64,000 bases of DNA from Hexactinellida sp. DTS-2022. Taxonomy: Eukaryota > Porifera > Hexactinellida. Location: NCBI GenBank assembly GCA_028753945.1, contig JAPNXP010000001.1:5818501-5882500 (forward strand), read 5' to 3'. Below, piece by piece: positions 11,446 through 40,000 of the stretch. Each line of letters starts with the position of its first letter. The stretch's first letter is position 1. Position numbers and translations under genes: made by a program. Below the pieces are notes generated by a model. The model saw only the letters and a program-made list of their open reading frames with translations. It was not told the origin of the DNA and did no database searches.

Positions 11446-11959
11446 TTAATCACTAAAACTAAATGTATTGAAGAACGATGGTAAACGACTGTGAATCAAA
11501 TCAATTACAGGTTGATAATGGCTATCTCTGTTCATCAAATATAAGGCGGGGGTTGTGTAGCCATCGTGATGGGAATGGTATCTGTACCATCTAGAATTAC
11601 TTAATACTTTCTTGGTATCAAAGTGGTATTTCGATACAAAAATATCTACATCAAGCATGCAGCACATGGCGACTATTTCGATGTCAGTGCCCCAATTGCC
11701 GTCGTTGTCCATCTGTGAATCTAACATATATTTCGCTGGTGATTGAGGAAGAAACTTAGTTTCGAGATATCGCGAAATGAAGGCGGCTCCCTGTGCAACA
11801 ATGAACCTGCATATTTCAGCTCGAATCTTTGCATAGCTTGATTGTGACCCTGTTAGAATAGCAGAAAATGCACGGAACAAGCAATTACCATCCTTCTCTA
11901 TCGGTAGATCTGCAAGTGGAGTAACGGTTGTTAAGAGGTCCCCTTCATATACTCCTGGG
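11446..11959 (-). CDS. OTU-like cysteine protease domain, apparently intact active site
   Basis: About 170 residues on the minus strand, ending at 11446. Visible motifs are the DGNC nucleophile loop, then FRAFSAILTGSQ, the WGTDIEIVAM segment and SHYQPV at the C-end. Such domains remove ubiquitin from proteins. The first 16 residues of the longest open frame come from the inserted hAT terminus and are not original. The original start lies upstream, beyond the insertion. Confidence 0.7.
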
Positions 11960-12668
11960 CATAGGCGGCGATCCTGGGGGGGCAGGGGGGCGATTGCCCT
12001 CCCCAATAATATCTAAACGGTGCGAAGGTATCTTTTCGCCCCCCCCAATAATATATAAATCGCCCCCATTAAATATTTATTATCGACATCAACTAAGTGA
12101 AATAGTGTTGAATATTGCACACTGATATTATAAAATTGATGTTTACCATAAACATTTATTATATGGTTTCAAGAATTTAGTGTACTCTTAAAAAAGAATG
12201 AATGCGAGAATCCATATTCACATTTCGTTTTTTGATTTTCTTAGATGGCACATTCAACTTCAAATGATTCGCTTGAAGATCTTATTATAGCAAATAAGCA
12301 GAAACTTGAAATCCAGAAAGTACCAAACCAACCTAAACAAATTAGTTTTCCCCTTGACGAAAAAAACAATAGAAAATTTCTTCCCATACGGTTTAAAAGT
12401 TTCCCTTGGCTTGAATGGGATGATAAAGTAAGTGCAGCTTTTTGTCATCCATGTCGGCAAATCTTTTAGTTGATTCATCTAGGTGCAGCTACAGCAAGAG
12501 TGAAGATACTTTTATTTCATCAGGTTTCAAAAATTGGAAGAAAGCCGTGGAAAAATTAAAAAAGCACGAATCTTGTCATGCGCATCATTTAAGCGTTGAC
12601 AAATTTAGCAATATGTTAAGAGGTCAAAATCTCGCTCCCCCAATAATTTCCACAAATCGCCGCCTATG
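11960..12668. mobile_element. 709-bp hAT element with 8-bp TSD CTCCTGGG
   Basis: Termini CATAGGCGGCGAT and ATCGCCGCCTATG are inverted repeats. CTCCTGGG flanks it at 11952-11959 and 12669-12676. Inside, on the + strand, is a fragment of a TTF-type zinc-finger domain of a ZMYM/hAT transposase, so this is an internally deleted derivative. It lies inside the OTU gene. Confidence 0.93.
12245..12640 (+). pseudogene. TTF-type zinc-finger fragment of a hAT transposase
   Basis: The frame from ATG 12245 carries ISFPLDEK, RFKSFPWLEWD and AFCHPCRQIF, the typical N-terminal TTF/hAT-C2H2-like block. After a stop at 12467-12469 a second frame (from about 12470) continues the same domain with SEDTFISSGFKNWKKAVEK and a C-x-A-H-H segment, so there is one frameshift. 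The catalytic RNase H-like part is absent. It would bind DNA but cannot catalyse transposition. Confidence 0.75.
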
Positions 12669-13545: not shown

Positions 13546-14841
13546 TTAGAAGAAGTCTTGCATTTGATAATCCCTACTTTCCTGGACCCTTGTAATGTAC
13601 TCTTTGTACTCTTTAGGTTTTCTGTCCCTTAGTGGGTACCTCCGTGTAACTTCAGTGCAAGGAATGTCATCCATTTCTTGGAAGTGTTCCTCTGACGGAT
13701 TCTCAACATCTTTTCCACTCCCCTCTGACATGTTTGTTTCATCTCTGGATGGATTTGTGAACTCCAGGGTTTCATCTTCTACCTCGTTACTTGTCTCACT
13801 TAACCTTTCTAAACTAGTGTTAGCCGTATCCCTGTTGTTCATTTCTCCTGACATTTGAGAGTTGGGTAACATAAAGTCGCTACCTCTACTTCCTTTGTAT
13901 AGTTTACACCGGCTCAGGTGGATCCACTTTCGTCTACTACCGCGATCAATCTTGACGTCCGCCCCTCTCCGTCTGATTACCCTATAAGGTCCATTGAACC
14001 TTGGATCGAGAGAATCTGTACTTCTCTCATTTCGTTCGAATACATAATCGCCTGGGCAAGTTTCCGTCCTCCGTGTACCTCTGTCATATTTTTGTTGCAT
14101 ATTTCGCTTACTGATCCGATCATTATCTGCTGCCTTCTCCAGGAGCTCGGCCTTTAGCTTCACCAATCGCTCGACGTGTTGTTGGTGTGTCTCGTCAGGA
14201 CCCTCCTTGTGAGCAGCAATCCAGGCATCAATAGGAGATATAGGCTGTCTACCCGTGCTGAGTACATGGGCAGAGAATTTGGTTGATGAATTCTCGATGT
14301 TATTACAATAAAATGTAACTTCAGTCAAAATACTGGGCCATGCGTCCTTGTCTAGATTTCTTTCGATAGTTAAGCACCTTGCAACTTGCTTTACGAGTCC
14401 GATACTCCGTTCTGCAAGTCCGTCTGCTTGAGGGTGGTACGGGGATGTATGCCGCTTTTCAATACCAAATTTATCGCACATTTCTCTAACCTCAGTACCG
14501 TCGACATTGTGAGCCTGATCGGTAAGTATACCTTTAGGCACCCCGTGACCCCGGAAAACCCAGCCGTTCTCGAACTCCTTAACGATTGAGGAGGCCTTTT
14601 GATCCTTTAACGGAATAGCCTCTATATAGCGCGTGAAGACATCTACAATACACAAAAAGTATCTATAGTTCTCATCAGACCATGGAAGTGTAGTTATATC
14701 CATAGCAATCAGGTCACCAGGTCCAATTCCACTAATATCAAACTCTTCCATCGGTTGCCTAGGACTATTGGAGGGCTTAGCTCGTTGACAAGTAATACAA
14801 TCATTACAGAATACCTTCACGCTTCGAGCCATCCCCTCCAA
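13546..14841 (-). CDS. Ty3/gypsy integrase, N-terminus deleted
   Basis: 431-residue frame on the minus strand. It opens within the zinc-binding domain (only the CNDCITC cysteine pair remains). The catalytic core follows: Asp in AMDITTLPW, Asp in LTDQAHN, and Glu in HPQADGLAERS, which is the complete DDE set. The GPYRVI-RRR chromodomain-like/SH3-like tail then gives way to an acidic Ser/Glu/Asn-rich region. Integrases of this kind insert retrotransposon cDNA. The HH half of the zinc finger is missing because of the junction with the RT fragment, so this copy is defective. Confidence 0.9.
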   Translation of the reverse strand: MEGMARSVKVFCNDCITCQRAKPSNSPRQPMEEFDISGIGPGDLIAMDITTLPWSDENYRYFLCIVDVFTRYIEAIPLKDQKASSIVKEFENGWVFRGHGVPKGILTDQAHNVDGTEVREMCDKFGIEKRHTSPYHPQADGLAERSIGLVKQVARCLTIERNLDKDAWPSILTEVTFYCNNIENSSTKFSAHVLSTGRQPISPIDAWIAAHKEGPDETHQQHVERLVKLKAELLEKAADNDRISKRNMQQKYDRGTRRTETCPGDYVFERNERSTDSLDPRFNGPYRVIRRRGADVKIDRGSRRKWIHLSRCKLYKGSRGSDFMLPNSQMSGEMNNRDTANTSLERLSETSNEVEDETLEFTNPSRDETNMSEGSGKDVENPSEEHFQEMDDIPCTEVTRRYPLRDRKPKEYKEYITRVQESRDYQMQDFF

Positions 14842-15738
14842 AAAGAAATTTCAATCGGTCTGAGTTGCCCCGTACGTTCATCTTTCTGAGATAATACCCC
14901 TGCAATACCATTAACGCTTGCGTCTGTTTCCACTGTAAAGTTTCTCTCCCAATTTGGAAATGCCAACATCACCGGTTCCTTGACCAATTTGTCTCGTAAC
15001 TTGCGAAATGTCCCTTCACTATCTACTGACCATTCCCAGGTAGCCCCCTTTTCTGTCAATCGGTACAGGGGTCCAGCCAACTCTGCCAAATTCGGGATAT
15101 AGGATCTGTAAAAGTTCAGGCTCCCGAGGAATCGCTGTAGTTCTTTCACACTAGTAGGTCTGGGAAAGTTTGACAATTTCTCTGCCGCGCTGGTCAAGGG
15201 TCTCCTACCGTCTTCAGATACTGAGTGCCCAAGGAACTCAACTTTATCAATACCCAGTTGGCATTTTCTAAATTTAATATGAATATTCGCTTGCTTCATT
15301 CTTTCCAGGACTTCTTGCAAGTCCACCAGATGCTGTTCAAATGTCTGCGAAAAAATGATGCAGTCATCTATATAAGACTCCGTATGTTTCAAGCCTTTCA
15401 AGGTGCTATCCATCATTCGTTGGAATGTAGCTTGGGAGTTGACTAGACCAAAGGGCATCACTGTCATCTCATAAAGCCCTCTCGGGGTGTTGAACGCGGT
15501 CTTTTCCATGTCGTTATCTCTAACTGGTCCGCACCAATATGCAGAGGAGATATCTATAACGGAGAAGTATTTGTAACCATGTAGCTTATCGAGGATAAAC
15601 TGGATTTGCGGGATACTGTATGCATCCTTTTTTGTTACCTCATTGAGTTTTCTGTAGTCAATTGCAAAACGTTGCTTCCCATCCTTTTTGGATACCAAAA
15701 CTACATTACTAGACCATGGTGAGTTTGACGGTCTACAT
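14817..15738 (-). pseudogene. Ty3/gypsy reverse transcriptase and start of RNase H, truncated both ends
   Basis: The minus-strand frame begins within the RT fingers (SPWSSNVVLVSKKDG) right at the hAT boundary. It carries FAIDYRKLNE, the catalytic YIDD in ESYIDDCIIFS, the FLGH segment and the RNase H opening ETDASVNGIAGVL. It then runs into a short tail and a stop where it overlaps the integrase frame. The rest of RNase H and the front of integrase are missing, an internal deletion. Protease, gag and the RT front are absent beyond the hAT copy. Confidence 0.9.
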
Positions 15739-28000: not shown

Positions 28001-31000
28001 TGTGGGGTTTCCAAATGTGATTTTTGACATATAGGGGTAACCTTTGGCCCCCGCCAACAAGTTGAGGTTTTCACTCGAAATTTCTCATACCGCGACAAGT
28101 TATGACGTCATTGTCACATTTCGAGAACCCTGAAAAGTCACTTAACCGCACTTAATTCCCGCCATCTAAGAGATAAAATTGTGAAAATTTAATAGAACAT
28201 GGACATTAATGATGCGGACACGTTGGTCACACCAGATCACCAATATACTGACTCATTATCGCATGATGACGTAATCACAAAAATTTCACATTGTTAAATT
28301 TGACTATTTTGGCCTATTTACGCTTCTTCAGTGTTAGAAATATGTAAACCACGCGTAAACCGCGAAGCGGTTGGTGTGTCTGGTTGTGTTCTGCTGCGAA
28401 GCGACCTAGCAAGCGAAGCGGGCTAGTAAAATATAAATACACAGCGTTTACTATATTTTGTGTTTAAATTTGACGAGTGTGAAGTTAGCAGCGAGAAATT
28501 GAGCACACTATAAGACACTATAAGTAATGAAGCAACGGGTCAATCTAGATGCCATTTGGAATATAGCAATACTAACCTAGGTACTTTCTGTTAAATTAAT
28601 TTTCCCTAATCTGACGCCTGGGAGGCATACAGTGACTTTGCAAAAAATGTTATAATTTTTCCAAAAAACTTCAAATTCTTAAAATCGAGCACAATTTGGA
28701 CGCCATATTTTGTATCACCAGTATATATAGAACTGCCATTTGGAATATAGCAATACTAGCCTAAGTACTTTCTGTTAAAATAATTTTTCCCTAATCTGAC
28801 ATCTTGGGTGGCATACAGTGACTTTGCAAACAATGTTATAATTTTTCCAAAAAACTTCAAATTCATAAAATCGAGCACAGTTTGGGACGCCATATTTTGT
28901 ATCACCAGTATATAAAGAACTGCCATTTGGAATATAGCAATACTAGCCTAGGTACTTTCTGTTAAATTAATTTTTCCTAATCTGACACCTGGGAGGCATA
29001 CAGTGACTTTGCAAAAAATGTTATACTTTTTCCAAAAAATGTATAATTTAATACTTAGAGTCTAAGATTATATATTCCATAACAACGACAGACTATGTGG
29101 GTATATTTCCTTCTGCAAGAATATTCTTGCATTATTAATATACTGATTTATTTAATTCTAATTTATTCAGTCTGTATTTAAGATTTAATGACGCTTACAA
29201 TCTGTTTATAGGGTTATCGAGTGTGTTGAATTCAAATATTGTAGGGAAATTCATTTTAGATTAATTGTTATTCTAATACTTAAACTTAATAAATGTAAAT
29301 GCACATTGAAATTGCTGTTAAATTATTAATACATTTAATAATTATTTAAACACCTTGAAGCGTTGAAGACAGTAAGAAAAAAATCCAAAATTGCAGCTGT
29401 GTCCATAGCATTTTGCTTTGGAGGCACTATTAATTAACCAGCCATCAAATATAGTGCCTCCAAAGGAAAATACTGTCGGCACAGCTGCAATTTTGTATTT
29501 TGGATTCGGGTAGGTTAGGCTATGGTCGTTGGCGATGAATTTTATTGACTATATTTTCCTCCTCGACTCGCCTGAATTAATTTATTTCTCATTAATATTT
29601 CAGAAAATTTCAATTGATCTCTAAACCTGAAACCATATACCTTGTATTCGTTTTCCTGATTCCAGTATCAGAATATTGAATTAATTATACTATCATAAAT
29701 GTTTTAGTTAGTATAACCTTATAAGTTTCTGATGATTAATTGAGCCAATATATATATTGACTTTTAATCTAAATCGCCTTAAAACTCATTTGGACAAACA
29801 ATCTATTTATTTTTATTAATTAAATATCCATGAAGATACGTAGCAATTATTTAGGTTTATATATTGAGACATCTTGTCAATATTTATTTTAGAGCTGTAC
29901 CGGATTAGAGATTCTCTACTCCGGCCGGATCCGGATATCCGGTGCTCAATTATCCGGTTATCCGGCCGGATATCCGGCTAAATATGTATTTGACAAATGA
30001 AACCATAATATCACATAAGAACAAGTTCTGCTTATTCATAATTTATTTGTACACATACTAAGCTTGTGTTTTTAGGGAGGCTTCTAAAATAATTTATGTG
30101 ATTCCACAATTGATACAGTATATGAATATACTTTCAATCGCATTCACCTTTGGTAAATAAGATCTTTTCAATAACATATTTATTTTCGATTCCTATTTTT
30201 TTTTTGTGATCGCTTTTCCTATTAGCTTGAAAGGTTGCATTTTTTATCAATCCCAGCATGAGTGAAATTTGACATTTTTCTCACTATCTAAGAACGATTC
30301 TTTCAGAGACTCTGTAATGAATGTGATGCCAATACATATATCACGTGGTAAAAATCCTATAATATATAGCACGTCACCACTGTGGAACCACATAAAACAA
30401 AATCCTATTGTAGAAATTCACAACAAGGTGATCATAGTATTTTTCAATCAACTAGTTCTGCTATTACACATTATCAAATTCTACTCCAAGAATATATATA
30501 CAAGAAAACCTGTACCAGACATTAGAACGGCAGAAGAAATGGACAGTTAATGACCCTAGAGCCATGGAAATTCACTTTATATTCGGAGAGATAGTTATTC
30601 TTTAATTCATACACAAATACAATTGGGACCGTTATCTGGCCGGATAGTTGTTCATATCCGGTTCCGGCCGGATATCCTGTAACTGGCCGGATACCGGATT
30701 AGAACCGGATATCCGGTACAGCCCTATTTATTATGCTTTTACAATAAACACCCTTTCTCAAAGGTTAGCCCCATTCCGCTAGCTGAGATGATCAGTAGCG
30801 ATCAAACCAATGTAGAAATAACTCATTTCCTCCTAAAATGGCGTTACAATGTCAAGAAAGTTTTAAAGAAAGATATTACTCCAACTCACATTGAAGTTGA
30901 CTTTAGTTGGCCAATGTTACATAGTACATGCAATGCATTCAATTCTCAAAGTTTAGAAATTTTCCTGACCAACTGCTGGGAAGACTTCATCATAGTGACT

Positions 31001-34000
31001 CAGAAGTAAATTCTATCAACTCGATACTCCACATTTGCTCAGCTCATATAATGCACCGATTTAGCTATAAACTTGAAAATAAAAGTTCGCTAAAGCCAAC
31101 CAAAAGGACCAAACGAATTATTATGTATATAAAGGCTAAACTAACGAGCTCAACAACTATTGAAGATATAAGTCAACTTTTCACTGCTTTGTGCATGTCC
31201 TGTTTCTCAAAGTTTAGGTACCCAGAAACTAAACAATATATTACTAAACTTCAAGATGCAATATTATTTACTGTGAATAATAACGATAATACATCTGAAA
31301 TAGAATACCTCGAGGAATTGGACGAAGAAATGCCAAATAAACAAGGGGATAGCTTGACCTACAAAGATAAGTCACCATTTGGCAAACATTTTCAGAATAT
31401 CTATAATGAGTGTTCAAATTTTATAGAAAATTTAAGCATAAAATTTATGCATCATTCTTTCGAGGAAAACAATGAATTTTATTTACCTGATTTACCGGAC
31501 TTTTTGGCAACACATTATATGCCAATTTCCCCACTATGGACAGGTTTAATGCTTGGCCCGATATTATATCCTGGGAAAGTTGATGTTACCTTCACGAATT
31601 CTATAGCTGAAAATTGGATGCGCATTGTGAAAATTAGTATATTGCAAAATGAAACTAAGTTAAGACCTGGGGACTTTATACGAATGGTACGTGAAAGTAT
31701 TTCTGGCAAAGCATTTGATTTTGCATTCTTACCCATAAGTGACAAATTGCTAAAAAGGATAAAGGTGGAAAAGAATGATAACACACAGGTGGAAGAAATC
31801 TGGAAGAGAGGTAAGAGAAGTAAACGTAGTTACTTTAGGAAAGCTGAACTTTCTACAGTCCGAAGTAGAGACAACCAAGTTAGAAATAAAGGTATAAATA
31901 GACAAAATTCTGAAGGGAATAAGAACAAGGATAAAAAACCCCTCACAGACGGGATGGGAGTGTGCTCCTTCTGATTGCACTTCCCCAATGTTTAATTTAA
32001 CTAGAATTTCAATATTAAAATTACATTTCATCTTAGTGTAATATAATTTAATTAATGTTTGACTTGTGAAGACTTCAAATGTTTAAATTAATTAAAGATT
32101 AATTATTACAAATAGAATTAGGAATACGTTGTAGTATTTACGTTACTATTTGAATAATAGAATTCATTATTGACATCATCACCATCATCAACTTGTAAAA
32201 TGTTCCAACTTCCAAGTGTTTTCATTGCACTTGTTATGAAACACATATTCACTTACAAACCAATTCAATAAAAATCCAAAATTGCAGCCTGTGCCGACGC
32301 ATGTTCCTTTGGTGGCACTATATTTTGTTGATGGTTTATTGATAGTGCCTCCAAAGGAACATGCTGTCGGCGCAGGCTGCAATTTTGGATTTTTTTTTCA
32401 CCAAGTCAACAACGCCCAAGGTGTGAAGAACCATTTGTTAATTGGTCGTAGTCACAAGGAAAGGTAGATAAATTTGAACTTAGTTTCTATTATAAACCAT
32501 CAAGAGTTTAATGCCATTCATTCATTATGTATTGATAATAAATTATATTATTATTTATTTATTTTAGCCATGTTATCCACGGTTAAGTTGGATTAAGTCA
32601 ACAAATTCCTTATTTAATTTAATTTGTTTTAATTCATTAAATAGTAATACTACAATTAAATAGAAGCCAGCTGCAATTTTATAAGTTAAATCAATTTAAT
32701 TATCGCAAGTTGAATCAATAGAGTAGGATTTAACAAGTTAAATCAATATAATTATTACAAGTTGAAACAATGGAATTAGATTTCACAGTTTTACAGAAAT
32801 TGAAGTGTGAGTAAACAAAGAAATTTCAACCCCAATTTATGGCAGAAAATAAACCGTTTATTGAAAATTTTCTTCTCCCATCAGACGCAGAATTTTATGG
32901 TGAATCCAAATATGAAATAGAATTTGGGGGTTTAGTAAAACATCTTTTGAGTTATGGACCAGACAAATTTTGAAAGGTGTTAAAGATGTGTCCAAAATTT
33001 GTTAATACAAAATCGTAACCCCAGGTGCAAATTAGACGGTCCCATCGCACCTACATGCCAAGTTTCAGCCCATCAACTAAAAAGCTCTGGCCAGGGCACC
33101 GTCTACGGAGAAAAATAGAAAAAAAAATAATAATAAAAATCCAAAATTGCAGCCTGTGCCGACGAATGTTCCTTTGGTGGCACTATATATTGGTGGTGGT
33201 TTATTGATAGTGCCTCCATAGGAACATGCTGTCGGCTCAGCTGAAATTTTGGAATTTTTTTCGCCATGTCATCATCACTATGAAGGTGTTAAATTATTTC
33301 AGAGAGGTGTTTCAAAAGGCAACGACCCTTAGTGAGTTGGAAGTTTCCATTTAGCTCACTTCATTTGAGAGATATTCAAGTTTCAGTAGAATATAATCTG
33401 TGATGACTCAGCATTTTTTAAGTGCGTGTTGGGTATTCACCCAACTCCAACCAACCCATGCGAATTATTTAATTCACAAAATTGTAAAATACATTTTTTT
33501 GACGATGTCATCATCACCTCAAGGTGTCAAGACCCACTTGTATAGGTGGTACGTGGCATAAGGACCAATTGATAAATTGAAAGTTTGTTTCTATCTTGTA
33601 TCATCTCTGAGATTAATGAAATTTAGCTAATTAGTATAAATATTTAATTAATAAATTAATAATTTAACACCATTATTATGTACAACAAAATAAATTAAGT
33701 TCAATTATTTGCAATTATTATTAATTTAAATTGAATTTCACTATAATATTTGAATTCCACGCACTCGATAACCCCAATAATCCAATTGGAACCGTCTATA
33801 AGTTAAATACAAAAGGAATTAATTATAATTAATTATGTCAGTACATTAATTGTGCAAGAATATTCTCGCCGAAATAAATATAATCACTTCATCTGTCGTT
33901 GTTGTGGAATGTAAAATCTTAATTAATGCCATTCATTCATTATGTATTGATAATAAGTTATATTATTAGTTATGTTTTTAGCAATGTAATCCATGGTTGG

Positions 34001-37000
34001 TTGAGTTGAGTCAACAAATTCCTTATATTATATTATTTAATTTAATCCATTGTATACTAGTAATACTAGAATTAAATAGAAGCCAGCTGGAATTTATAAG
34101 TTAAATCAATATAATTATCGCAAGTTGAATCACTAGAGTAGGATTTAAGAAGTTAAATCAATATAATTATTAGAAGTTGAAACAATAGAATTAGATTTAA
34201 CACTTTACTGAAATTGAAGTGTGAGTAAACAAAGAAATTTCAACCCCCATTTATGGCAGAAATTGACCCCTTTATTGAAAAATTTCTTCTCCCATCAGAC
34301 GCAGAATTTTATGGTAAATCCAAATATGAAATAAAATTTGGGGGTTTAGTAAAACATATTTTTAGTTATGGACCAGACAAATTTTGAAAGGTTTCAAAAA
34401 TGCGTCCAAAATTTGTTAATTAAAAATCGTAACCCCAGGTGCAAATTAGACGGTCCAACCGCACCTACATGCCAAGTTTTAGCCCATCAACTCCAAAGCT
34501 CTGGCCAGGGCACCGTCTACGGAGAAGAAAAAAAAATCCAAAATTGCAGCCTGTGCCGACGACGTTCCTTTGGTGGCACTATATTTTGTTGGTGGTTTAT
34601 TGATAGTGCCTCCAAAGGAACATGCTGTCGGCGCAGGCTGCAATTTTGGTTTTTTTTTCGCCAAGTCATCAACGCCCAAGGTGTGAAGAACCATTTGTTA
34701 ATTGGTCGTAGTTACAAGGAAAGGTTGATAAATTTGAACTTAGTTTCTTTCATAAACCATGTAGTGTTTAATGCCATTCATTCATTATGTATTGATAATA
34801 AATTATATTATTAGTTATTTATATTAGCATTGTTATCCACGGTTGAGTTGAATTAAGTCAACAAATTCCTTATATTATATTATTTTATTTAATCCATTGT
34901 ATGGTAAATTAAATAGAAGCCAGATGCAATTTATAAGTTAAATCAATTTAATTATCGCAAGTTGAATCAATAGAGTAAGATTTAACAAGTTAAATCAATA
35001 TAATTATTACAAGTTGAAACAATAGAATTAGATTTAACACTTTTACTGAAATTGAAGTGTGAGTAAACAAAGAAATTTCAAACCCCATTTATGGCAGAAA
35101 TTAAACATATTTTTGAAAATATCCCTCTCGCATCAGACGCAGAATTTTATGGTGAATCCAAATGTGAAATAAAATTTGGGTGGTTTAGTAAAACATATTT
35201 TGAGTTATGGACCAGACAAATTTTGAAAGGTGTTAAAGATGTGTCAAAAATTCGTTAATCAAAAATCGTAACCCCAGGTGCAAATTAGACGGTCCATACG
35301 CACCTACATGCCAAGTTTCAGCCCATCAACTATAAAGCTCAGGCCAGGGCACCGTCTACGGAGAAAAAATAAAAATAAAAAATCCAAAATTGCAGCCTGT
35401 GCCGACGCATGTTCCTTTGGTGGCACTATATTTTGTTGGTTGTTTATTGATAGTGCCTCCAAAGGAACATGCTGTCGGCGCAGGCTGCAATTTTGGATTT
35501 TTTTTCGCCAAGTCATCAACGCCCAAGGTGTGAAGAAGCATTTGTTAATTGGTCCGAGTCACAAGGAACGGTAGATAAATTTGAAGTTTGTTTCTATCTT
35601 AAACCATCTTGAGTTTGATGCCATTCATTCATTATGTATTGATAATAAATTATATTATTAGTTATTTATATTAGCATTGTTATCCACGGTTGAGTTGAAT
35701 TAAGTCAACAAATTCCTTATATTATATTATTTTATTTAATCCATTGTATGGTAAATTAAATAGAAGCCAGCTAGAATTCACAAGTTAAATCAATATAATT
35801 GTAGCAAGTTGAAACAATAGTGTAAGATTTAACAACTTAAATCAATATAAATATTACAAGTTGAAACAATGGAATTAGATTTCACAGTTTTACTGAAATT
35901 GAAGTGTGAGTAAACAAAGAAATTTCAACCCCCATTTATGGCAGAAATAAAACTCTTTATTAAAAGTTTTCTTCTCCCATCAGACGCAAAATTTTATGGT
36001 GAATCCAAATATGAAATAAAATTTGGGGGTTTAGTAAAACATATTTTGTGTTATGGACCAGACAAATTTTGAAAGGTGTTAAAGACGTGTCAAAAATTTG
36101 TTAATCAAAAATCGTAACCCCAGGTGCAAATTAGACGGTCCCATCGCCCCTACATGCCAAGTTTCAGCCCATCAACTATAAAGCTCTGGCCAGGGCACCG
36201 TCTACGGAGAAAAAATAAAAATAATAAAAATAAAGGCAGTGATTCTAATACTGGGCCACTATACTATATATAGTCGGCACAGTAATAATAATAATATAAA
36301 TAAAGGCAGTGATTCCAATACTGGGCCACTATACTATAGTATAGTCGGCACAGTAATAATAATAACCAAAGCACTAAGACCAATACTGGGCCACTATACT
36401 ATAGTATAGTCGGCACAGTAAAAATAATAAAGGCAGTGATTCCAATACTGGGCCACTATACTATAGTATAGTCGGCACAGTAAAAATAATAAAGGCAGTG
36501 ATTCTATACTGGGCCACTATACTATAGTATAGTCGGCACAGTAAAAATCCAAAATTGCAGACTGTGCCGACGCATGTACCTTTGGTGGCACTTTATTTTG
36601 TTGGTGGTTTATTGATAGTGCCTCCAAAGGAACATGCTGTCGGCGCAGTCTGAATTTTGGATTTTTTTTCGCCAAGTCACCAACGCCCAAGGTGTGAAGA
36701 ACCATTTGTAAATTGGTCGTTGTCACAAGGAACGGTAGATAAATTTGAAGTTGTTTCTAACATAAACCATCTTGAGTTACATGCCATTCATTCATTCTGT
36801 ATTGATAATAAATTATATTATTAGTTATTTATTTTAGCAATGTTATCCACGGTTAAGTTGAATTTAGTCAACAAATTCCTTATATTATAATATTTTATTT
36901 AATCCATTGTATAGTAATACTAGAATTAAATAGAAGCCAGCTGGAATTTATAAGTTAAATCAATTTAATTATCGCAAGTTGAAACAATAGTGAAAGATTT

Positions 37001-40000
37001 AACAAGTTAAATCAATATAATTATTACAAGTTGAAACAATGGAATTAGATTTCACAGTTTTATTGAGATTGAAGTGTGAGTAAACAAAGAAATTTCAACC
37101 TCCATTTATGGCAGAAATTGAACCCTTTATTGAAAAATTTCTTCTCCCATCATTCGATGAATTTTATGGTGAATCCAAATGTGAAATAAAATCTGGGGGT
37201 TTAGTAAAACAATTTTTGAGTTATGGACCAGACAAAATTTGAAAGGTGTTAAAGATGGGACAAAAGTTTGTTAATCAAAAATCGTAACCCCAGGTGCAAA
37301 TTAGACGGTCACTCCGAACCTACATGCCAAGTTTCAGCCCTCAATGTATACAGGTGTGGCCAGGGCACCGTCTACGGGGACATGATAATAAAGGCAGTAA
37401 GATTAGATACTGTGTCGGCACAGTAAATAATAATAAAGGCAGTGATTCCAATACTGGGCCACTATACTATAGTATAGTCGGCACAGTAAAAAAACAAAAT
37501 ATATTATTAATTTCAGTAAGATTAGAACTGGGCCACTATACTATAGTATAGTCGGCACAGTAATAATAATGATAAATTCAGTGATTCCAATACTGGGCCA
37601 CTATACTATAGTATAGTCGGCACAGTAATAAAATAATAATATTAAAGGCAGTAAGATTAGAACTGGGCCACTATACTATAGTATAGTCGGCACAGTAATA
37701 ATAAAGGCAGTGATTTCAATACTGGGCCACTATACTATAGTATAGTCGGCACAGTAATAAAGGCAGTGATTCCAATACTGGGCCACTATACTATAGTATA
37801 GTCGGCACAGTAATAATAATATTAATAACCAAGGCACTAAGACCAATACTGGGCCACTATACTATAGTATAGTCTGCACAGTAATATCAGTCATTATCTA
37901 GCAGATAGTATTGGCTTATGTAATATGTTCTATTGTATTCAGTATACTATAGAGTAATTACAATATGGAGAAAATGGCTGATTTATGTAAATAATCGTTA
38001 ATAAAACCTAGAGTTGATTAGCGACCTATTCATTTTAATTGATATATAGAAAGAACATCCTTAGGAGAATACAACCTCTATAATTTCAATTGATAATTCG
38101 AATTATTAAAGAGTCACTGGACCAGAATACAAATTTCGATATAACTGACGAACAAAAGCGCAATTGTGAATTCGGGCTTCGAGATGATCATCTTCAGGAA
38201 ATTCTATATCTCCTGTCCAAATTTGAAATCTCTATCCCTTTTGGTCTAGCCAAACCATCGCGTACGGCCGGCCGGCCGGAAGTCCGACAGAGGTAAATTC
38301 AATAGTGTGCACTTATAGTATAAAACTATTGTAGGACCCTACTATAACGTTTTTTACTAGAAGAAGCACACTAAAAAACGAAGAATGCGAAGGATAGATA
38401 GTAGCAGGATACAAAATGACCATACATGTTGTATATCGGAAAAAATAATTATTTACATGTAGAATCAAATGAATTATCAAGTGATGATAGTATATTTGTT
38501 ACAAAATCTGATGATATCCAGACATACGTTCACGGAGAGTTTAGCCCAGTAAACCCATCATGGCAAAAAAGAGAGGTGTAAAGAAATGATGCTTACATCT
38601 GTTTGTGGAGTTATTTATGAAAATCAGGCTATTAATAATACCCTGAAAATACGTAAATTGGTTCCCTCGAAGGAAAAGCTTATTGCACCGAATTGAAATT
38701 GTTTGTTCAGTTCTCTCTCGTATATCATAACAGGATCTGATCATAATCACAGAGAAATAATGGAGCTATTATTATTAAATATGCAAGGGAAATACAAAGA
38801 TTTTTGTTCAAAATACTGCAATTCACACTCAAATTTAAACGCTACAAACAACTACTCTTCAATTGAGGAGTATATATAATCGAGTAAGATTGACAGAACT
38901 GGATCTTGGGGAACCGACTTGGAATTATTTTTAGCCGCACAATTGCTTAAAACAGATATTTTCTTATACAATGATTTTGACCACCTTTGGTATAAATTTT
39001 CGGGGCATGGATTTAACGATAAGAAAGATGTCCATAATTTAACTGAAAACAGGATATATCTTCGTCTCTACTTAAGTCATTTTCAACCAATAACAAAAGT
39101 TAATTCAGAAGATTAAGTGAGACAAAGCAACATATGGGAATTTGACCCTACGAAGTATAATTAGCTAGAGATATATAAATCGAAGTCTGTAGTATTAGAT
39201 TTGATTAGAATTAGCATCTTAGCATAGTTTGACAATTATTAAAAATGTAGATTTGCTATGTCATTGGGGGACATACTTTACGTATATGTCTGATTTAGTT
39301 GTTACCAAATTGACAAAAAGTACCTAGGCTAGTATTGCTATATTCCAAATGGCAGTTCTGTATATACTGGTGATACAAAAATATGGCGTCCCAACTGTGC
39401 TCGATTTTAAGAATTTGAAGTTTTTTGGAAAAAGTATAATATTTTTTGCAAAATCACTGTATGCCTCCCAGGTGTCAGATTAGGGAAAAATTAATTTAAC
39501 AGAAAGTACTTAGGCTAGTATTGCTATATTCCAAACGGCAGTTCTTTATATACTGGCGATACAAAATATGGCGTCCCAAACTGTGCTCGATTTTAAGAAT
39601 TTGAAGTTTTTTGGAAAAATTATAACATTTTTTGCAAAGTCACTGTATGCCTCCCAGGCGTCAGATTAGGGAAAAATTAATTTAACAGAAAGTACCTAGA
39701 CTAGTATTGCTATATTCCAAATGGCATCTAGATTGACCCGTTGGTTCATTACTTATAGTGTCTTATAGTGTGCTCAATTTCTCGCTGCCAGCTCTCTGCT
39801 AACTTCACACTCGTTTAAATTAGATATTTGTTTGAAATTTTGTATTAAAAACTTTATACACATATATGCTAATTTTAAATGTAAATAGTGAGTACGTAAA
39901 AGATATGTTATACCATACCTTCAAAAACAGAAGTTAATCACAATGATTCAAAAGAATAAAGTCAATCAACATAAAGTCAGAAAGTCAAATAATGAAGAAA

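Follow-up and report, generated by a model that had tools for sequence, protein, structure and literature searches.

Why would a DNA transposon carry a protease of the ubiquitin pathway? The question is raised by one element in the window analyzed here, a stretch of 64,000 nucleotides from the sponge Hexactinellida sp. DTS-2022 (contig JAPNXP010000001.1), where an inverted-repeat transposon at positions 28473–39814 holds remnants of a presumed transposase and of an OTU domain. Coordinates are window positions, and loci L009–L071 are other loci of the same 112-Mb genome. We favor, at a probability of roughly 0.6, the reading that this is a dead copy of a recently mobile transposon family whose transposase is fused to an OTU domain, whose coding region is preceded in several subfamilies by a leader with a 2A-like motif, and whose OTU domain would act in cis to guard the transposition complex.

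A single protein joins the transposase and the OTU domain

The presumed transposase and the OTU domain are parts of one fused protein of up to ~1350 amino acids (aa). At L009, a single stop-free open reading frame (ORF) of 1077 codons holds the full arrangement, with the OTU domain at residues 920–1023 (PF02338, E=1.2e-9, 39.1 bits against a cut-off of 23.3) as the sole domain detected in it by Pfam. A reading of the window made from its sequence only, called the sequence-only reading below, had described two genes, an arrangement rejected by this uninterrupted frame; the two seem far apart in the window because a 6.4-kb insertion splits the transposase from the OTU domain. A genome search with the L009 protein gave 52 matches, with 43 of 1236 candidates scored, and its counts are lower bounds. 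At least 22 of the 52 matches run without a stop from residue 280 of the query, or from a point before it, to residue 1057 or later, where the OTU part ends, in open frames of 819–1349 aa. Three further stop-free matches of more than 600 codons stop short of the OTU domain, and OTU sequence lies downstream of them on the same strand. The pairing seen in the window is thus no accident of that locus, and stop-free copies, in which the sequence-only reading had envisaged that the two parts might never co-occur, hold both.

Eight proteins from seven subfamilies were aligned along their length (alignment A1). PF02338 was found at E≤1 in all eight, with L013, which is truncated in the OTU domain, below the cut-off. 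Residues D471, C517, H520 and E708 (L009 numbering) and the OTU segment D921-G-N-C924 are invariant; the glutamate sits in [TS]N-xxx-E-N-W, and C517 and H520 form a CxxH pair. The first aspartate (D396, in LDATGS) is present in seven of the eight members, the exception being L012, frameshifted at that point, and the C-terminal OTU histidine (H-F/Y-x-P) in all six that extend that far. Judged by its domain score and these residues, the OTU domain is genuine and presumably has deubiquitinase activity. The other part is called a transposase because of its conserved acidic residues, the terminal inverted repeats (TIRs) and target-site duplications (TSDs) of the element, and its place in the sole long ORF of stop-free copies. 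Nothing relevant was found in NCBIfam among three proteins, the PDB sequence search matched the OTU part alone (OTUD1, E=1.8e-4 with a profile), and viral contigs searched with alignment A1 gave 25 pattern matches, none of them confirmed as relatives. Similar unnamed proteins probably occur in many animals.

Divergence at second codon positions, given in the order OTU domain, core and linker, was 0.16, 0.23 and 0.42 between L009 and L012, 0.20, 0.26 and 0.55 between L009 and L030, and 0.16, 0.23 and 0.66 between L009 and L031. Among these closer subfamilies, the OTU domain appears as constrained as the catalytic core, and the linker appears to vary freely. Judging by the alignment and the codon positions, the transposase–OTU fusion most likely has a function and predates the divergence of these subfamilies. 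A host fragment captured passively and without function would be very improbable, as frame and catalytic residues are retained across subfamilies at 33–57% identity and codon-position bias is seen in nearly every pair, even though DNA transposons are known to pick up gene fragments (PMC6431247) and the OTU domain is broken in the window copy.

Ends, target-site duplications and related copies

The window element is confirmed as a TIR transposon with inverted ends of ~510–570 bp made from 186-bp units, and both the long inverted ends and the subterminal tandem units had been recognized correctly by the sequence-only reading. The arms pair 28483–28606 with 39670–39793 at 95% and 28805–28977 with 39484–39656 at 97%, besides further arms, and tandem units span 28550–29039 on the left and 39313–39726 on the right. 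Comparison with other genomic copies set the termini, ACGAGTGTGAAG, at 28473 and 39814, two bases away from the boundaries proposed earlier (28471 and 39812). The 9-bp duplication reported with those boundaries is present; the sequence then given for it, GTTTAAATT, lies about two bases off, and the actual copies, TTAAATTTG and TTAAATTAG, match at eight of nine positions, which ~0.026% of random 9-mer pairs from the window equal or exceed.

The end sequence of the element has 44 matches in the assembly, and termini differ by subfamily, with ACGAGTGTGAAG in that of the window copy and ATGAGTGTGAAG in a second one. Eleven elements, the window copy included, were checked for duplications by inspecting both ends. 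The match is 9/9 in L010, L012, L016 and L029, and likewise in L023 after a 5-nt offset read by eye (the scripted comparison without the offset gave 0); it is 8/9 in the window copy, L011 and L021, 7 in L009 and 6 in L013. A duplication of about 9 bp (9/9 or 8/9) is therefore present in eight of the 11, and duplications at other copies, which the sequence-only reading had suggested looking for, do occur. Its length of 11.3 kb for the element is inflated by nested insertions: longer related copies measured 4.8–7.8 kb, and two of these contain insertions as well; two deletion derivatives measured 0.5 and 2.0 kb.

L016:1553-2051 consists of 499 bp of end sequence only, with an exact 9-bp duplication, and the family thus has non-autonomous copies. 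Within the L010 copy, a THAP-domain ORF (PF05485, E=1e-8) at L010:4024-4287 (+) probably belongs to a nested P-type element.

A 2A-like leader precedes the transposase in several subfamilies

GxExNPGP is described as a ribosome-skipping motif (PMC6249498). Sequences of the 2A kind occur in viruses, in non-LTR retrotransposons and in NLR genes of sea urchins, and one sea-urchin 2A leader serves as a dual targeting signal (PMC4981915). In four of the seven subfamilies examined here, an exon ending in a 2A-like, or StopGo, motif precedes the ORF, as judged by pattern and position. The motif reads CGDIEVNPGP in L009, L010, L011 and L018, SGDIEINPGP in L012, L013, L021 and L022, CGDVEVNPGP in L031 and GGIEINPGP in L032; L025 carries a degenerate form. 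In L010, L013 and L032, predicted phase-1 GT-AG introns of 58–68 nt link the motif exon to the main exon, and past this junction a stop occurs in L010 and L013 and none in L032.

Genome-wide, GD[V/I/M]E.NPGP occurs at 48 sites and its reversed pattern at none. Of the 48 sites, 9 are followed on their own strand, within 6 kb, by a scored family transposase, 10 by an OTU domain and 13 by one or the other; four of these 13 have an OTU domain without a scored transposase and are candidate family members. Random sites gave a mean of 0.2 and a maximum of 3, with assumed lengths for contigs C9, C15 and C16, and the wrong side or strand gave 0. Additional family members (e.g., L010, L021 and L022) bear the motif without a scored transposase match. 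The variant GGIE.NPGP occurs at 49 sites against 0 for its reversed pattern, and an L032-type transposase lies within 4.5 kb downstream of 18 of them (11 within 130 nt; wrong side or strand 0). Retroelements with 2A are known (PMC4981915), and the motif might be part of independent ones inserted upstream of the transposon. This seems most implausible, given that position and orientation of the motif are constant in copies of four subfamilies, that it lies at most 130 nt from the ORF in 11 L032-type copies and that the splice sites are in frame. In each of four stop-free copies of 1260 aa, 99–100% identical to one another, the motif begins ~97 nt upstream, and copies bearing 2A have thus probably moved recently.

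Placement among known transposons

By its anatomy, this is a TIR family with 9-bp TSDs that would work like a Mutator-type element, its ancestry being unplaced; structure suggests membership in Mutator, and profile comparison does not support it. As in Mutator-like elements (MULEs), the TSD is 9 bp and the TIRs are long (PMC6446971). The order D..D..CxxH..TN...E, a possible further likeness, is found in seven of eight members (0–2 of 5000 shuffles each), by a pattern written after the alignment had been seen. Profile similarity to MULEs, however, is not significant: the MULE transposase family PF10551 matches none of the eight members, hhalign gave P=0.13 and 0.19 in two comparisons and P=0.45 against 17 MULE ORFs, the median of 100 column shuffles, and none of the comparisons with MULE ORFs from the same genome (3, 6, then 17) and with six rve-type ORFs was significant. 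Rehavkus, or MULE-NOF, was compared by its published description. It has a 9-bp TSD, TIRs of 26–400 bp, a single ORF and a minisatellite near one end (PMC6446971), and its combination of 9-bp TSD and long, repeat-rich TIR is found here; it is also said to have a PHD finger, which Pfam did not find in any of the eight members. The family may be part of a superfamily on record, Mutator taken broadly or Rehavkus/MULE-NOF, whose OTU tail has been noted in Repbase or elsewhere, and we judge this a little short of even odds: the TSD, the TIRs and the collinear residues, in a pattern chosen post hoc, speak for it, and the missing PF10551 and PHD matches and the hhalign result at the level of shuffled controls speak against it.

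For a protease joined to a transposase, there is a precedent in Ginger1, contrary to the sequence-only reading, which knew no standard animal family with such a pair. Ginger1 elements likewise have TIRs, and their transposases bear OTU or, in others, Ulp1 at the C-terminus, but their core is Gypsy-integrase-like, with a zinc finger, DDE and GPY/F (PMC2836005). No rve match was found in any of the eight members here, and membership in Ginger was rejected on that ground. Proteases linked to MULEs are named as Ulp1 (PMC2836005, PMC13317346), and the words OTU and protease are absent from the main text of an arthropod MULE survey (PMC13359780). OTU domains are also an add-on of some Helitrons and Helentrons (PMC6431247, PMC2836005), which differ in using rolling-circle replication proteins, and a soybean bacterial artificial chromosome clone with a CACTA element lists otubain-like genes (PMC2613891). 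The 2A of sea-urchin NLR genes and non-LTR retrotransposons has the same form, D[V/I]ExNPGP, and in NLRs ends an N-terminal leader (PMC4981915), whereas its carrier here is a TIR DNA transposon. In the open-licence literature, with Repbase and Dfam outside its scope, no report was found of an OTU–transposase fusion on an element with 9-bp TSDs; nor was one found there of a 2A leader on DNA transposons, and the words transposon, transposable and transposase are absent from the main text of a 2026 StopGo survey.

Decay of the window copy

The window copy is dead: its 5' coding sequence is gone, its frame is broken and foreign stretches of ~0.8 and ~6.4 kb lie inside it (Table 1). About 1.5 kb of 5' coding region is missing, its place being occupied by the shorter foreign stretch. 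The transposase remnant has open pieces at 30683–31009 and 30925–31974, and the first catalytic aspartate is absent from the copy's own open pieces. The linker–OTU end is 95% identical to L009, and the OTU fragment taken alone scores 18.5 bits against PF02338 (E=0.0029), below the cut-off. The longer insertion consists of diverged repeats at 0.8–1.4 kb spacing and a 56–65-bp tandem array, which at 36299–36548 and 37451–37895 carries the palindrome ACTATACTATAGTATAGT.

Table 1. Features of the transposon copy in the window.
Feature	Position	Strand	Basis or remark
Left target-site duplication, TTAAATTTG	28464..28472		8/9 identical to right copy
Left terminal inverted repeat, starts ACGAGTGTGAAG, 2.6 tandem units of 186 bp	28473..29039	+	
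Leader-exon remnant, 61 bp, 2A motif itself lost	29830..29890	+	Alignment to L009 1841–2487 and leader position in L009
Foreign stretch, 836 bp, CCGGATATCCGG-rich ends (ends read by eye)	29891..30726		Gap between homologous blocks
Transposase remnant, ~400 codons, frame broken	30727..31928	+	96% identical to L009 4013–5222
Nested 6.4-kb insertion, TAAAAAAC at both junctions	31929..38372		Between transposase and OTU
Transposase–OTU linker remnant	38373..38687	+	End estimated from L009 coordinates
OTU domain remnant, frame broken, open piece 38880–39116	38688..39116	+	Start inferred from L009 coordinates
Right terminal inverted repeat, 2.2 tandem units of 186 bp	39307..39814	-	
Right target-site duplication, TTAAATTAG	39815..39823		

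Proposed role of the fused OTU domain

In the cycle that we propose, the ribosome would skip at NPG/P, giving a released leader and a transposase–OTU protein that begins with proline. The transposase would cut at the element ends and insert the element with a 9-bp stagger, by cut and paste. The fused OTU domain most likely acts in cis within the transposition complex, where it may free the transposase, or host proteins that bind the ends, of ubiquitin or a ubiquitin-like protein; the complex would then be neither extracted nor degraded before the break is repaired. An unskipped fraction still bearing the leader may go to membranes, as do sea-urchin 2A signal sequences, and this would throttle the nuclear transposase.

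Protection of the transposition complex is favored because the OTU domain is covalently part of it, and stabilization of the transposase or its complex strikes us as an even bet. Steering of repair factors, which Bao and colleagues proposed as targets of such proteases (PMC2836005), is doubtful as its role, and loosening of silencing is unlikely. A rival view has the OTU domain counter silencing in trans, with chromatin as its target (histone ubiquitin or silencing complexes, for instance), comparable to the VANC/KIU proteins of Mutator-like elements in plants. In plant MULEs, VANC (KIU) genes that carry Ulp1 are associated with hypomethylation of related elements (PMC13317346), a TET/JBP gene is common to unrelated fungal DNA transposons (PMC12730594), and OTU domains are found on several kinds of element in this genome; but in the 22 long stop-free matches the OTU domain is fused to the transposase and is no separate gene, and Pfam shows no chromatin-reader domain in the eight members, which leaves an effect in trans with a low probability.

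Several results weigh against a mobile family with a 2A leader and a protective OTU domain. In L009, a stop lies between the leader exon and the long ORF, and this locus is hence not intact as a whole. No Pfam family matched the transposase part in the eight members or the window. Between distant members, the OTU domain is less constrained than the core (0.44 versus 0.37 for L009–L032), and codon-position bias is absent between L013 and L012, a comparison of 58 OTU codons with a frameshifted tail. L032, from the subfamily with an intact 2A gene, has no clear 9-bp duplication on inspection of both ends. Upstream sequence of L029, L030 and L033 (partial in L033) is without a 2A motif, which is apparently dispensable or lost in these members. 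The leaders of L009 and L013 reach hydropathy peaks of only 1.4–1.9, and a membrane-signal role is thus weak for these two. Splicing, skipping and the protease role are themselves predictions from sequence.

2A motifs and OTU domains on unrelated elements

Six GD[V/I/M]E.NPGP sites unlinked to the family were inspected (L034–L039). Four of them are, by their domain matches, Ginger-like integrase elements: L035 matched rve and a SCAND3-type zinc finger, L036 a SCAND3-type finger, L037 rve below the cut-off and L038 an H2C2 finger. In these four, GD[IV]ExNPGP lies upstream of the integrase, and in L035 it is within a 215-aa ORF whose end closely precedes the integrase ORF. At L034 there is a similar leader and no long ORF, and L039 resembles, by eye, the transposase–OTU family.

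Both unlinked GGIE.NPGP sites inspected are Helitrons (Helitron_like_N at E=3.5e-29 in L070, and PIF1 in L070 and L071), and neither matched proteins of the transposase–OTU family. Their first ORF (L070:526-1722 and L071:577-1683; G000:C18) opens with a leader plus GGIEINPGP, so that rolling-circle transposons, too, bear a 2A-like site here. The leader start, MISIELYRA, resembles MISIELWRA of L032, and with the motif excluded the score of the L032 leader against those of L070 and L071 is reached by only 1 and 0 of 2000 shuffles; these leaders are homologous. Similarity between the L031 and L032 leaders is marginal (29 of 2000 shuffles), and no homology past the motif was found for the leaders of L009, L013, L035 and L037 in the pairs tried.

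A search of the genome for OTU domains gave at least 150 matches above the cut-off: of 440 candidates, 150 were scored, and all of these passed. Of four loci inspected, L049 belongs to the transposase–OTU family, and L046–L048 lie behind integrase-like ORFs, by eye. The OTU of L046 is identical to that of L030 at 52 of 196 positions (E=1e-15, a single comparison), including a WQxxKC segment ahead of the domain. An OTU ORF at L058:24-899 (+) has a WQRKxC segment in the same place and no linked transposase among those examined. In the window itself, a 188-aa OTU ORF at 11446–12012 (-) has Gypsy-type pol pieces, of integrase and reverse transcriptase, upstream of it on its own strand (13546–14850 and 14817–15737, -), possibly a long terminal repeat element with an OTU domain. 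In a tree of 19 OTU rows, 10 of 16 inner branches are open and one is well supported, and transposon OTU branches are shorter than those of L050, L051, L055, L057 and L058, of which we take L050 and L051 to be cellular OTUs; a single origin of the transposon OTUs is thus not established.

These observations allow a wider, tentative reading, less likely than not, in which an N-terminal leader ending in 2A and a C-terminal OTU module would form a portable kit. DNA transposons that are unrelated but reside in one animal genome would exchange it because it helps any nuclear transposition machine. So far, both parts appear together on the family with 9-bp TSDs, 2A on Ginger-like elements and Helitrons, and OTU on integrase-type elements.

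A built-in enzyme of the ubiquitin pathway was noted with Ginger1, where its role was merely suggested (PMC2836005), and the fusion recurs here on another type of transposase. In closer subfamilies, conservation of the fused OTU domain is on a par with that of the catalytic core, and near-identical stop-free copies could be assayed. The 2A leader common to this family, Helitrons and Ginger-like elements points to an exchange of modules between mobile elements; if the two parts do travel as a kit, animal DNA transposons would make general use of ubiquitin removal and of dosing or targeting controlled by 2A.

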